In this document: one piece after another, positions 3,775 to 19,367 of the stretch | Layout of the letters: each line of letters opens with the position of its first letter | How positions within the stretch are numbered: position 1 is the first letter of the stretch | DNA from: Candidatus Binatia bacterium | GTDB lineage: Bacteria > Desulfobacterota > Binatia > UBA9968 | Direction: 5' to 3' | DNA: 33,069 nt | Assembly (NCBI GenBank): GCA_025924215.1 | Contig: JAICEJ010000008.1 | Location: 1-33,069, forward strand | The notes under the pieces: generated by a model | The model's input: the letters and a program-made list of their open reading frames with translations, nothing else | What the model was told of the DNA's origin: nothing | The model's database searches: none | Position numbers and translations under genes: made by a program

Positions 3775-6606
3775 ATGGACTACAAAGATACCCTCAATTT
3801 GCCAAAAACCAGTTTTCCGATGCGGGCCAACCTGCCGCAGAATGAGCCGAAGTTGGTCGAAAAATGGCAATCTGATCGCGTCTATTTTCGGATGTTAGAA
3901 GCAAACGAGGGCAAACCAAAATTCATCCTCCACGATGGACCTCCGTACGCCAACGGCGACATTCACATAGGTCATGCCCTCAACAAAGTTCTTAAAGACA
4001 TCATTGTTAAGTATAGAGCTATGACCGGTCACTTGGCGCCTTACGTGCCGGGTTGGGACTGCCATGGTCTACCCATCGAACTCCAAGTTGAAAAAAATGT
4101 CGGTAGAGCAAAAAAACTCGCGATGACTAAGGCGGAGGTTCGACGCTTGTGCCGAGAGTATGCGGAAAAGTACATCTCCGTTCAGCGAGAAGAATTCAAA
4201 AGATTAGGAATTCTAGGCGACTGGCAACAGCCATACCTTACCATGACGCCCGCCTATGAAGCCCAAGAGATTCGCGAGTTAGGAAAGTTCGTCGCCTCGG
4301 GAATGCTCTATCGTCGAAAGAAACCGGTTTACTGGTGCGCTTCCTGTGTCACCGCTCTCGCTGAGGCTGAGGTCGAATACGAAGAGCATGTCTCGCCCTC
4401 AATTTACGTAAAGTTTCTGGTTAAAGATCACAAGGGAAAATTTATCGGTGACGAAGAGGCCACTTACTTCGTCATTTGGACCACCACCCCGTGGACCTTG
4501 CCGGCTAATCAAGCAATCGCAATCAATCCGAAGTTTACGTACCGTCGCGTGAGAACTTCCAGGGGAGCCCTCATCATTGAGGAAGAGTTAGTTCCAACGG
4601 TGATGAAAGCAATCGGTTTGGAGCCCTCGGAATACAAAATCACCGAGGGTGCATGGTCGGGCGCCGAACTCGAAGGCATTGTTTGCCAACACCCCTGGTT
4701 GGATCGTGACTCAAAGATTGTTCTTGGTGAGTTTGTCACCCGGGACCAAGGGACCGGCTGCGTTCACATCGCACCTGGACATGGTCAGGAGGACTATGAA
4801 GTCGGAATGCGCTATGGCCTCGAGGTGATGGCGCCCGTGGATGCTGAAGGTAGGTTTACAGCTGAAGCCGGCGATCTGCACGGAGAATCGGTGTTTAAAG
4901 TCGATTCCAAGATCATTCAAAAACTTCGTGATCATGGAGCACTCCTGAAAGAAGAGACTCTTCCGCATAGTTATCCCCACTGCTGGCGTTGCAAAAAACC
5001 CATCATCTTTCGAGCAACGGAGCAGTGGTTTATTTCTATGGAGAAGAATGGGCTTAGAGACTCAGCCCTATTCGCCATCGAACAGGTGCGCTGGGTGCCA
5101 CCCTGGGGCAAAGATCGTATTCGGGGTATGCTCGAAAGTAGACCGGACTGGTGTATTTCGCGCCAGCGCTCCTGGGGAGTTCCAATCCCAGCGGTTTATT
5201 GTAAGCAATGCAATGAAGCTATTCTCACGCAAGTTGTCTGCGAACACATCGCCGGCATCGTTGAGAGAGAAGGCTCTGATGCGTGGTTTACACGGCCGCT
5301 CATCGAACTGGTGCCCGCTGATCTTGCCTGTCCAAGGTGCGGCGAAAGGAATTTCTTTAAAGAGGAAGATATTCTCGACGTCTGGTTTGACTCGGGAGTG
5401 AGCCATGCAGCAGTAGTCGAAGTTGACCCGAGGCTCGGCGGTCGCGCCCACCTTTATCTTGAGGGAAGCGACCAGCATCGCGGGTGGTTCCACACTGCTT
5501 TGCTCACTTCAATAGCCACTCGGGGACGCGCACCCTATGAAAGTGTGCTCACGCATGGCTTTACCTTGGATGGTAAAGGACGCAAGATGTCAAAATCCTT
5601 GGGCAATGTCATTGCCCCACAGGAAATCACTAAGAAATCGGGCGCGGAAATCTTGCGGCTCTGGGCGGCAGCTGAAGATTATCGCGAGGACGTGCGCATT
5701 TCAGATGAAATTCTTAACCGCCTGGTGGAGGCTTATCGGCGACTTAGAAACACAGCACGTTTTTTGATCAGCAACCTTTACGATTTCGATCCCGAGCACG
5801 ATCGCGTTTTGCCGCCCGATCTTGACGAACTCGACCGCTGGATCCTGCATCGGACCGAGAGCTTACTAAGTCGTAGCCGAGAGGCTTACGAGAAATACGA
5901 ATTTCATACTGTGTTCCATGGTCTTAATAACTACTGCAGCGTTGACCTTAGCGCGCAGTACCTCGATATCGCCAAAGACCGCCTTTACTGCGCCGGTGCA
6001 AAAAGCAGTGAGCGGCGAGCGGCGCAGACGACGCTGCATAGAATCTTGAACGTGCTGGTCCACTTACTGGCCCCGATTCTATCGTTTACCGCCGAAGAGA
6101 TTTGGACCTACATGAAGGCAAAAGATCGTCTGTCCGGCAGTATTTTTCTTTCTCAAATGCCGCAAGCGGATCCCGCGATGTTGGATCGAGAACTTGCTGA
6201 CAGATGGGATCGTATCTTCAAAGAGCGCGCCGAGGTGCTCAAGGCTTTGGAAGAGGCCCGAACTAAAGGCATCATCGGTCATTCGCTGGATGCAAAAGTC
6301 GTTTTGGTTAGCCAGAACGGCGGGCCCAATTCTACTCTGGGAAATCTGATTAAAGCGGATAAGAGCAAGATGCAGGATGTTTTGATCGTGTCACAGGCCG
6401 ACATTTCCGAATCGGTGACATCTGATAGCGCGAGTGTGTCTTGGTATCACACCGAACTATTGAACTGCCAAATCGCAGTCTCAAAAGCTGAGGGTCTCAA
6501 ATGCGAGCGTTGTTGGAAGTACGACACTGAGGTGGGGAGCGATGCAAGCCATCCGACCGTCTGTGCCCGTTGTGCCGCAGTTCTGAATTCTGGAGCCGCG
6601 GCTTGA
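3775..6606 (+). CDS. ileS: Isoleucyl-tRNA synthetase
   Basis: 943 aa; [16 protein letters not shown] and C-terminal zinc motif [12 protein letters not shown]...CARC. Confidence 0.97.
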
Positions 6607-15199: not shown

Positions 15200-15556
15200 C
15201 TAATATTCATTTCGTTGGCGTTCCAGGCGTTGGATAGTCTGCCGGTTTCGGGTGATTTCAGCCTGATTTCTTTGGATTTGCTGTTGCTGCTGGTAATTGG
15301 TGATCTCCTGACCTTGCAGTTGGTCTCCCACCAGCGCGCCGGCGCCAAGACCGAAGGCTCCGCCGATTGCTGCTCCGGCACCCGGATGGCCAACAGCGGC
15401 GCCGATGAGCCCCCCTGTCGCGGCGCCGCCAAGCGCTCCGATTCCAGCCCCCTTTTCACGTGTGGACAAAGAGCCACCGGCACAGCCGGTCACTAACATT
15501 GTTCCGGCCAACACAAAAATTTTGACACTCCCGAAAGATTTTTTCGCTGTATGCAT
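15200..15556 (-). CDS. Glycine-zipper lipoprotein (YMGG-like / OmpA-associated glycine-zipper type)
   Basis: Lipobox LVTGC; GAGIGALGGAATGGLIGAAVGHPGAGAAIGGAFG repeats; Q-rich coiled tail; AAAGGAAAA RBS. Confidence 0.82.
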   Translation of the reverse strand: MHTAKKSFGSVKIFVLAGTMLVTGCAGGSLSTREKGAGIGALGGAATGGLIGAAVGHPGAGAAIGGAFGLGAGALVGDQLQGQEITNYQQQQQIQRNQAEITRNRQTIQRLERQRNEY

Positions 15557-15575: not shown

Positions 15576-15890
15576 TCATGAGCGTCCTAAAAAACGTTTG
15601 CTAGCCTTGCCGCTTGCTTTATTGTTCCGACCGGTTTGTTTCGGAGTGGTCGATAAGCGTTCCCGGCCGTGTACACCGTCGCTCTTATCGGAGCGCACCC
15701 AGCCGCGGGCCGGGTCGGCCGACCACTGCGGGGCTTCGTCGGTGCTTTGTTTGCTACTGTGCTTGTTAGAAATCGTGCCACGCTGCTTATGCGGGTTTTC
15801 CCCCTCGCCAGCAGCAAGGAGGGAGCTTGTTACGTTGGCCAGTAGCAGATTTGCGATTGCTAGCACCGCTATGTAGCTGGCTACCTTCAT
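15576..15890 (-). CDS. Small secreted basic hypothetical protein
   Basis: 104 aa with signal peptide (MKVASYIAVLAIANLLLANVTSSLLAAGE); tightly packed between 15902-16069 (11-nt gap) and the glycine-zipper gene (19-nt gap). Confidence 0.6.
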   Translation of the reverse strand: MKVASYIAVLAIANLLLANVTSSLLAAGEGENPHKQRGTISNKHSSKQSTDEAPQWSADPARGWVRSDKSDGVHGRERLSTTPKQTGRNNKASGKASKRFLGRS

Positions 15891-15901
15891 AAAACATTTG
15901 A

Positions 15902-16069
15902 TTAAGCTTTTTTTGCTTCCATCGTGCTCATAGTCACAGCTGCGATCGCGTGCGCGGCTGCTGACGGCTGAGCGAGTTTGTTCATATCAATTTTTTCGAT
16001 GTTGTCGTTAAAGCAACGAACGATCGCATTAAGTAACCCCATGACTTCAATAAAATGATCTGATTGCAT
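15902..16069 (-). CDS. 55-aa small protein absent from the ORF track: MQSDHFIEVMGLLNAIVRCFNDNIEKIDMNKLAQPSAAAHAIAAVTMSTMEAKKA
   Basis: AAGGAGGA at 16083-16076, 6 nt before ATG at 16069; open to TAA (complement 15902-15904); downstream of a sigma54 promoter. Confidence 0.7.
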   Translation of the reverse strand: MQSDHFIEVMGLLNAIVRCFNDNIEKIDMNKLAQPSAAAHAIAAVTMSTMEAKKA

Positions 16070-16104
16070 ATCGAATCCTCCTTAAGCTCTCGGGGAGCCT
16101 GTCA

Positions 16105-16121
16105 AAGCAACTCAAATGCCA
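16105..16121 (-). promoter_or_regulatory. Sigma-54 (-24/-12) promoter TGGCATTTGAGTTGCTT
   Basis: GG-N10-GC spacing with TGGCA and TTGCT blocks; predicted start near 16095, 26 nt upstream of the 55-aa ORF; next to a sigma54 activator gene. Confidence 0.72.
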
Positions 16122-16383: not shown

Positions 16384-17739
16384 TTATGCTTTGCCGTAGA
16401 GCGCGAGCTTGGCGCTCAAAGTTTTCGGGGTAATACCAAGTAGGCGCGCAGCTTGGGTTTTGTTGCCTTCGCTCGCGGCTAATGCCTTTTCAATTGCTTG
16501 ACGTTCGGCTTCTGCCAGAGACATAGGTGCCAATTCAGATTTTTCTTCGACCACCGCTTTGAGGCAGAACTGCTCAAAATCTCTGGCCGTCAAAGTCGGG
16601 CCTGGAGATAAGACCGAGAGACGTTCCATGGCATTGCGTAACTCTCGCACGTTGCCAGGCCAGGAGTGAGCTTGCAGTGCAGTTGTGTAATCTGCCGCCC
16701 ACTCTGGTACCGGCCGGTGGTATTTCGTGGCGAAGAATTCGAGAAAATAATTTGCGAGCAGCGCGATATCCTCGCAACGTTGCCGCAGCGGCGGTAGTTC
16801 AAGATGAAAAACGCTCAGTCGATAAAAGAGATCCTGTCGCAGTTTGCTTTCTTTAACCGCGCTTGCGGGCTCGCGATTGGTGGCTGCCACTACTCTCACC
16901 GACACAGGAATATTTGCATTGCCGCCGATGCGCCGCACCTGCCGTTCTTCCAGAACTCGAAGAAATTTGGCCTGAACCTCCATGGGCATCTCAGTAATCT
17001 CATCGAGAAAGAGTGTGCCGCCGTCAGTTTGTTCGAAACAACCCGGGTGTCGTTCAATAGCATTGGTAAAGGCGCCTTTCTCGTGGCCGAAAAGCTCGCT
17101 TTCCATCAATGTTGCGGAAATGGCTGCGCAGTTAAGCGCAAAAAAAGTAGCCTCACGCCTCGGTGAAAGGTCGTGCAATGTTTGGGCGACGAGTTCTTTG
17201 CCGGTGCCGCTCTCGCCGCTGATTAAAACCGACGCATCAGTGGCGGCAATCTGGCCGATCTGCTGGTAGAGCTGACGCATGGGCGCGGATTTGCCGATGA
17301 GCGAGCCGTAAGAACCTAACGGCGACTCGAGTTTGTGGCGTAGTGCAACGGCTTCGCGAGCAAGCGCAACCTGCTTCAGAGCCTTCTCAAGCGTGATTCG
17401 CAGTCGCTCAGGCTCGAGCGGCTTGGGTAAATAGTCATAGGCGCCGAGCTTGATGGCTTGCACTGCGGTATCCACGGTCGCCTGACCAGTGACAAAGACA
17501 ACCGCAATTTGCCGCACCCGTTCTCCCAACGATTCGACGAATTGAAGTCCGCTCATGCCAGGCATCATGAGATCGGTGACGATGGCATGGGGTAATTCTT
17601 TATCGCAGCTTTTCAGGGCGGCAGCTCCGTCGGCAGCATCGAAAGTATTGTAGCCCCAGCTTTGAAGCAGCGCCGTCAAGCCTTGGCGGGTGACGGAGTC
17701 ATCATCGACTACAAGAACAACGGCGCGCGGGCGAGCCAT
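16384..17739 (-). CDS. NtrC-family sigma-54-dependent response regulator
   Basis: REC domain (VTDLMMPGMSG), Walker A GESGTGKE, GAFTNA loop, Walker B GGTLFLDEI, C-terminal Fis-type HTH (NKTQAARLLGITPKTLSAKL). Confidence 0.95.
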   Translation of the reverse strand: MARPRAVVLVVDDDSVTRQGLTALLQSWGYNTFDAADGAAALKSCDKELPHAIVTDLMMPGMSGLQFVESLGERVRQIAVVFVTGQATVDTAVQAIKLGAYDYLPKPLEPERLRITLEKALKQVALAREAVALRHKLESPLGSYGSLIGKSAPMRQLYQQIGQIAATDASVLISGESGTGKELVAQTLHDLSPRREATFFALNCAAISATLMESELFGHEKGAFTNAIERHPGCFEQTDGGTLFLDEITEMPMEVQAKFLRVLEERQVRRIGGNANIPVSVRVVAATNREPASAVKESKLRQDLFYRLSVFHLELPPLRQRCEDIALLANYFLEFFATKYHRPVPEWAADYTTALQAHSWPGNVRELRNAMERLSVLSPGPTLTARDFEQFCLKAVVEEKSELAPMSLAEAERQAIEKALAASEGNKTQAARLLGITPKTLSAKLALYGKA

Positions 17740-17741
17740 AA

Positions 17742-19274
17742 TCAGCTAGGCTCCAGCGGAAGAATCAAGCGAAAGGTGGCGCCATGACCGTTGCCCTGAT
17801 AGGTCAATGATCCGCCGTGCGCTTCGACGATCAATTGGCTTAGCGGCAACCCGATACCGCTGCCCGAGATTTTTGTCGTTTTGCCAAATTCGAAAAGCTC
17901 CGGTTCTTGCTCCGGTGAGACTCCGGGTCCAGCATCGTTAATATCCACCATTACTCGAGAGTCATCCTTCTCTGCCATAACGCGGATCTCGCCTCCATCC
18001 GGCTGCGCCTCCATGGCATTGCGCAGCAAATTATCGAAGGCTTGGCGCAATCGAGTCGCATCTCCTTGGACTCGCCATGGTCCTTGAAGCCGTTCCTGGA
18101 CAAGGCTAATGTTTTGGGCTACGCAAGCTGACCCGATCGCTTCCAAGCTAGTCTTTAGAACTTCAGCTAGATCCACCGGTTTATGCTCCATATTCACGGG
18201 AGCGGAATAATCTGTGAAATCTCGTATCAGCCGATTCACTTGGCGCAGGCTCGAATCGAGCGCTGCAATGCAACGGTGCTGCTGATCGATTGCACCATTG
18301 GACTCTTCGGTAGATTGCGCCGGACTGCGCAGGAGCTCGAGATGAATAGCTAGGGCGTTCAGCGGCGTTCGGACTTCGTGCGCCAGAGTGCGCGCGGCAA
18401 GCGCCAACCGTTGTGCAGGTGCGGGTGCGGCAACCTTCTTCCGCTGCTTCATCACCAGACGATCGATAAGATCCAAGCTAGTGCCGACTTCGTCCTCTCT
18501 GGCATACTCGGGACGAGCGGCGTAAGTTCCCGCTTCCGCTTGGCGGAGAGTTTCGCTGATAATGCTAAACCGGCGCGTATAAAGTGCGGTGGTAAGAAAT
18601 GCGCTAAGCAGAGCGATGCCGCCACCCAACGCAAATAGTAGAGTTAGCTGTCGCCACATGCCGGTCAGAAGCTCAGTCCAGTCGGCTGGATTGATCCATA
18701 GGCGCAATCCGCCTGGGCCGCGCGCCCCCTCCGGCATCTGCAACGGCACCATTACATCATAATAGGTTGCTTTGCCTTGAGTTCGAGAATTGATCAGGGT
18801 AACTCCGCGACGCAACGCTTCATGGAACTGCGCATCTCTGTACGCTTCCGCGTCTTCCTGTCCCGCTGAGCTATAAAGGACCATTCCCTCGGCATTTAGG
18901 ACCCACATCGCCTCGATACTACCGCTTCGATCAACGTAAGCGCGCATGAGTCCTTTCACTTCCTCATGGCGCGATGGCCTGCGGACGGTGGTTTGTTGCC
19001 GGTTTGCGCTGCTTTTGCCGGGGAATATATTTCCCAGAAAACTCCAAAACGAGGATGATTGCGTTCGCGACGGCCCGGTTTGAACGATAACCGGCCGTTG
19101 TTTCAGGCTATCGGCTAAGGCGATTTCAACCTGGCGCGCCATTAGCAGTGCCGTTTGTAGTGTGGCCTCGGTAGTAAGCCGTTGCGCGATCAGCCAGACA
19201 CCCGCGGCGAACAGACCCGATATGATGAGTATGGTGCCCAGGAAAACCGCTATTTGCTGCTGCCGCAAACTCAT
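17742..19274 (-). CDS. Membrane sensor histidine kinase, cognate of the adjacent regulator
   Basis: Two TM segments flanking an extracytoplasmic domain, HAMP-like region, LAHEVRTPLNALAIHLELL H-box, SGSGIGLPLSQ; ATG at 19274 or TTG at 19310. Confidence 0.92.
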   Translation of the reverse strand: MSLRQQQIAVFLGTILIISGLFAAGVWLIAQRLTTEATLQTALLMARQVEIALADSLKQRPVIVQTGPSRTQSSSFWSFLGNIFPGKSSANRQQTTVRRPSRHEEVKGLMRAYVDRSGSIEAMWVLNAEGMVLYSSAGQEDAEAYRDAQFHEALRRGVTLINSRTQGKATYYDVMVPLQMPEGARGPGGLRLWINPADWTELLTGMWRQLTLLFALGGGIALLSAFLTTALYTRRFSIISETLRQAEAGTYAARPEYAREDEVGTSLDLIDRLVMKQRKKVAAPAPAQRLALAARTLAHEVRTPLNALAIHLELLRSPAQSTEESNGAIDQQHRCIAALDSSLRQVNRLIRDFTDYSAPVNMEHKPVDLAEVLKTSLEAIGSACVAQNISLVQERLQGPWRVQGDATRLRQAFDNLLRNAMEAQPDGGEIRVMAEKDDSRVMVDINDAGPGVSPEQEPELFEFGKTTKISGSGIGLPLSQLIVEAHGGSLTYQGNGHGATFRLILPLEPS

Positions 19275-19367
19275 GCCGGCGCAGGATAACAGATCGTCCA
19301 AAGCCAGCAAAGTTGAACTCCTGGCCGAACTTGCGCCTCTAGCACCTTTGCTGCATAGTTAATTCTT

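Follow-up and report, generated by a model that had tools for sequence, protein, structure and literature searches.

Comparative sequence analysis gives good support for a genuine protein-coding gene of 55 codons, under selection, at the head of a sigma-54-dependent operon of a Candidatus Binatia bacterium. We call this small protein and its family A1; in our reading, it founds a small-protein family restricted to one lineage, a single bacterial family. The gene lies in a window of 33,069 nucleotides, i.e., the whole stretch of DNA analyzed, in the order histidine kinase, NtrC-type regulator, sigma-54 site, A1, secreted 104-aa protein, and glycine-zipper lipoprotein. The features of the locus are as follows.

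17742..19310, minus strand: partner sensor histidine kinase, which may start instead at the ATG at 19274
16384..17739, minus strand: NtrC-type response regulator (receiver, sigma-54 AAA+, Fis HTH)
16106..16121, minus strand: sigma-54 -24/-12 promoter TGGCATTTGAGTTGCT, full consensus, also kept upstream of homologues
16076..16083, minus strand: Shine-Dalgarno (SD) sequence AAGGAGGA, 6-nt spacer to the A1 ATG
15902..16069, minus strand: A1, 55-aa small protein gene, with frame-specific purifying selection and homologues in 7 genomes
15576..15890, minus strand: 104-aa secreted protein, signal peptide by eye, motif QWSADPxRGWVR, start 11 nt after the A1 stop
15200..15556, minus strand: 118-aa glycine-zipper lipoprotein (Gly-zipper_Omp, 1.3e-6)

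Re-reading of the minus strand bore out the open reading frame (ORF) proposed in a preliminary description of this DNA, with its ATG at 16069, in-frame TAA stop at 15902, and predicted product MQSDHFIEVMGLLNAIVRCFNDNIEKIDMNKLAQPSAAAHAIAAVTMSTMEAKKA. The perfect SD claimed 6 nt before the ATG is also present, at 16083-16076; the arrangement AAGGAGG-N4..9-ATG occurs once in the window versus 0.28 times expected by chance. A 60-aa length cut-off would explain any omission of A1 from the ORF track. As claimed, A1 is the first gene of a sigma-54 operon, since it is the first gene after the site at 16121-16106. This site, which fits the pattern TGGCAY-N5-TTGCW, is the sole occurrence in the window of the full consensus TGGCATN5TTGCT (0.09 expected). 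No sigma-70-like promoter was found between 14900 and 16400, nor were any RNA families found in the window. Given the usual promoter distance, transcription would start near 16095, and the SD would lie within a short leader. The divergent homologues, the likeness to the neighbor's signal peptide, the amphipathic helix, and the constant gap to the next start, all presented below, go beyond the preliminary description.

The regulator immediately upstream of A1 is an enhancer-binding activator with a sigma-54 interaction domain (Sigma54_activat, 9e-69). The adjacency of A1 to the kinase/regulator pair and the type of its promoter fit membership in their regulon, binding itself being a prediction; no inverted repeat that might form a regulator-binding dyad was detected upstream of A1 in three loci at the settings used. 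Two other loci carry lesions in these genes that reflect mutation or assembly error: an in-frame stop codon shortly before the position where the kinase usually starts (G018:C2, L041) and a regulator ORF broken from 4018 to 4107 (G008:C611, L093). The secreted protein and its relatives share a near-invariant QWxADPxRGWxR motif and a basic tail, and this family has no Pfam or NCBIfam match.

Whether the frame is coding was judged by two analyses that the preliminary description had suggested, a homologue search with the 55 aa and the calculation of dN/dS. Searches of the genome collection returned A1 in its own genome and homologues in two congeneric genomes, at 98% and 65% identity. The preliminary description had named a frame lost amid conserved flanks as evidence against the gene; the opposite was seen in the three-way DNA alignment, where the A1 ORF has no indel whereas the 5′ flank and untranslated region (UTR) have many and are heavily rearranged. 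Compared with the window, the 65% copy is changed at 21 of 35 synonymous sites and at 27 of 130 nonsynonymous sites, giving a dN/dS of 0.20 (Fisher p=1.6e-5). This depletion is specific to the A1 frame, as the other five (two sense, three antisense) gave values of 0.5-2.2 without significant depletion of nonsynonymous changes. Most of the constraint falls in the first 35 codons (dN/dS 0.14). The 98% copy gave a dN/dS of 0.06, a value resting on five differences only.

A decaying signal-peptide duplicate, or a short-lived open frame without function, would share some properties with A1, which is short and lineage-restricted, with a poorly conserved C-terminal third that diverges rapidly. A second congeneric pair, G015 and G008, also shows weak constraint that is not significant (dN/dS 0.62, p=0.16), and a nascent 10-codon copy exists in genome G012 (described below). 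We nevertheless consider this explanation very unlikely. The frame-specific dN/dS of 0.06-0.20 argues against it in the window's genus, none of the seven copies has a frameshift, and the promoter and SD are retained.

The homologue search also reached divergent members. Orthologues of the adjacent response regulator are found at 71-84% identity in other genera of the same bacterial family, and the DNA behind them contains divergent small ORFs with conserved sigma-54 sites in G013, G021, and G015. The E-values of these three are not independent because the sequences sat in the search profile, and their membership is based on common position, start register, and promoter. The profile including them identified a further homologue in G008 (E=4.5e-10). 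The four divergent homologues represent three further genera of the family, and a sigma-54 site lies upstream of each. In total, A1 occurs in 7 of the 148 genomes of the class, all within one bacterial family; the relatives' genomes are metagenome-assembled. The remaining 141 genomes and a sample of the phylum yielded no convincing homologue. Weak profile matches in G018, G016, G005, G011, and G007 were set aside; the frame inspected in G018 is unlike A1, and that match is not credible. A profile match in G012 proved to be the secreted neighbor and not an A1 member. The earlier statement that A1 matches no family held for Pfam and NCBIfam, and PHROGs and PDB likewise gave no significant match. 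No relative was confirmed when the single sequence was used to scan 84,980 species genomes, by a method that reaches close relatives only and from which the window's own or near-identical genomes were possibly excluded. In regulator trees, the A1-bearing loci group with the A1-less G006, apart from the A1-less G005, G018, and G020. This grouping is compatible with one origin and one loss of A1, the inner forks being uncertain.

In every one of the six loci where A1 adjoins the secreted gene, 10-11 nt separate the A1 stop from the secreted-gene start. In the window and in G001, its nearest relative, the secreted gene lacks its own SD; in other loci, the SD of this gene overlaps the A1 stop or lies directly next to it. 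The constant gap and the missing SD indicate that the two genes are probably translationally coupled; RNA folding around the secreted-gene start did not differ from that of shuffled sequences. These same features would be expected of a leader ORF whose translation matters more than its product, with ribosomes loaded by the strong SD, terminating, and reinitiating at the secreted gene. We regard such a role as a rather unlikely full account of A1. Selection on A1 in the window's genus acts at the amino acid level, and a helix and its amphipathicity are conserved at low sequence identity. Furthermore, in G013 A1 lies elsewhere in the locus, away from the secreted gene and with its own sigma-54 site, indicating that it is not merely a leader. 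A role as leader and a role of the product are compatible and can both be true.

A1 also appears to be related to the signal peptide of the adjacent secreted protein. The A1 profile matched the secreted protein of G012 through its signal peptide (E=1.9e-7), although this strongest single match could be a local chimera or an assembly effect. The N-termini of A1 proteins resemble the neighbors' signal peptides with a Z of 6.5 relative to hydrophobicity-preserving shuffles, compared with -0.2 for unrelated signal peptides. When the A1 profile was run on 178 signal-like N-termini from all loci, ranks 1 to 4 were all taken by the secreted family, and five further members of that family ranked between 21 and 57. 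HHalign aligned A1 residues 1-24 with signal peptide residues 1-24, in register from the start codon (P=0.0003, with a probability of only 41%). Within A1-bearing loci, no similarity between A1 and its neighbor was found at the DNA level. The A1 core differs from that of the signal peptide in being charged or polar and amphipathic, and no secreted domain follows it. A1 is likely to have descended from the signal peptide or to have exchanged sequence with it.

In G012 (contig C37, L053), a near-identical 83-nt duplication with few differences is present at about 310-393 and 601-684 on the reverse strand. The duplicated segment comprises the 5′ UTR, SD, and first 8 codons of the secreted gene, with the second copy located in the gene's own 3′ end, and it yields an SD-led 10-codon frame. 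The 5′ segment thus does duplicate at this locus, with the proviso that an assembly error in this metagenome-assembled genome is possible. On a more specific and fairly doubtful scenario, A1 was born from the signal-peptide segment of its neighbor: a duplicated 5′ segment with UTR, SD, and first codons turned into a gene of its own, lost the hydrophobic core, came to encode an amphipathic helix, and acts on the same export or signaling route, with intermediates in relatives. If the signal-peptide origin is true, the family shows intermediate stages from an export signal to a new small protein.

The N-terminal half of A1 is predicted to form an amphipathic helix. AlphaFold2 modeling with six sequences placed a helix at residues 2-24, with a pLDDT of about 90 for residues 11-20; the rest of the model is weak (pTM 0.39). 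All seven members contain an amphipathic 18-residue stretch, with hydrophobic moments of 0.42-0.63 and shuffle p-values of 0.0008-0.016 that are uncorrected and refer to the best window. Three signal peptides of the secreted family gave moments of 0.22-0.30, which are not significant. Helix and amphipathicity persist across members of low sequence identity. The earlier claim that A1 lacks a transmembrane (TM) segment held as far as hydrophobicity goes: the best 19-residue mean is 0.72, compared with 0.86-0.92 in three neighbors' signal peptides, and the hydrophobic stretch is interrupted and does not qualify as a single TM segment on this one scale. Nor does the window's A1 have the continuous hydrophobic core and cleavage site of a signal peptide; the G013 homologue is borderline by eye.

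That A1 exists rests on computation, and the mechanism that we infer is as follows. The kinase/regulator pair would switch on the sigma-54 operon under envelope-type stress. A1 would remain cytoplasmic, resting on the surface of the inner membrane via its amphipathic helix, and would modulate the sensor kinase or else the coupled secreted neighbor's export. The family would have arisen by duplication of, or exchange with, the neighbor's signal-peptide segment, with loss of the continuous hydrophobic core. We give slightly less than an even chance to this reading as a whole, i.e., a genuine lineage-restricted gene derived from a signal peptide whose product acts at the membrane surface, with the kinase or the neighbor's export as its target. 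Equally, the helix could mediate contact with another protein, as amphipathic helices also serve as dimer and adaptor interfaces. Together with the coupled synthesis of A1 and the secreted protein, this leaves room for a cytoplasmic A1 that works through a protein partner and not through the membrane, for instance as a chaperone or adaptor for the neighbor's product. We hold this to be unlikely, the relation to signal peptides and the envelope-type operon favoring the membrane.

A proposed effect on the kinase has parallels in known small proteins. MgrB, a small protein of a two-component regulon, is reported to act on its kinase, PhoQ (PMC8404706, PMC10576120). MgrB and A1 are both about 50 aa long and encoded within the kinase's regulon, a membership that is putative for A1, and A1 also adjoins kinase genes. 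However, MgrB is a membrane protein, whereas A1 is predicted to form an amphipathic helix, lacks a TM segment as judged by hydrophobicity, and matches no family, and any effect of A1 on a kinase is hypothetical. DUF1127 small proteins are reported to bind the kinase PhoR (PMC12501420). They resemble A1 as small proteins without a catalytic domain, a kinase partner being a proposal for A1; A1 did not match the Pfam DUF1127 profile. A1 resembles MgrB and DUF1127 proteins in size and setting and is assigned to neither. A literature search for sigma-54 small amphipathic proteins or signal-peptide-derived small proteins returned nothing. A1, which combines a promoter, an SD, and evidence of selection, represents a clean case, from an uncultured soil/groundwater bacterium, of a functional gene too short for common length cut-offs.

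A1 also directs attention to an apparent regulon of envelope and stress genes under sigma-54 control, in which other small families await description. Genome-wide, 40 sigma-54 consensus sites were counted in G000, versus 11 for a control with the reversed pattern. The genes behind the first 30 sites, named from sequence by eye without a profile search, include those for lipoproteins and CsbD-like, hemerythrin-like, and MlaC-like proteins. These gene contents are naturally interpreted as a role of the operon and its regulon in envelope or general stress. Apparent stress and envelope genes of G000 (L112-L141) often lie behind TGGCATATGC-like sites.

A second small-protein family, A2 (TTLGELIAALTEEAF...LVAYILxDLL; about 58-80 aa), occurs in the same operons. 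It has 44 matches in 20 of the 148 class genomes, with up to 6 per genome (L061-L090, and L040, L041, and L042 downstream of the regulator), some of them behind sigma-54 sites. The A2 members tested belong to no Pfam or NCBIfam family, and homology of A2 to A1 was rejected (HHalign probability 0.2%). In G001, G000, and G002 (L073, L074, and L090), A2 is fused in frame, at the N-terminus, to an MlaC-like protein that retains an apparent internal signal peptide. The fusion sits behind the sigma-54 site TGGCATATGCGTTGCT in L073 and L074 and behind TGGCATAAGCGTTGCT in L090.
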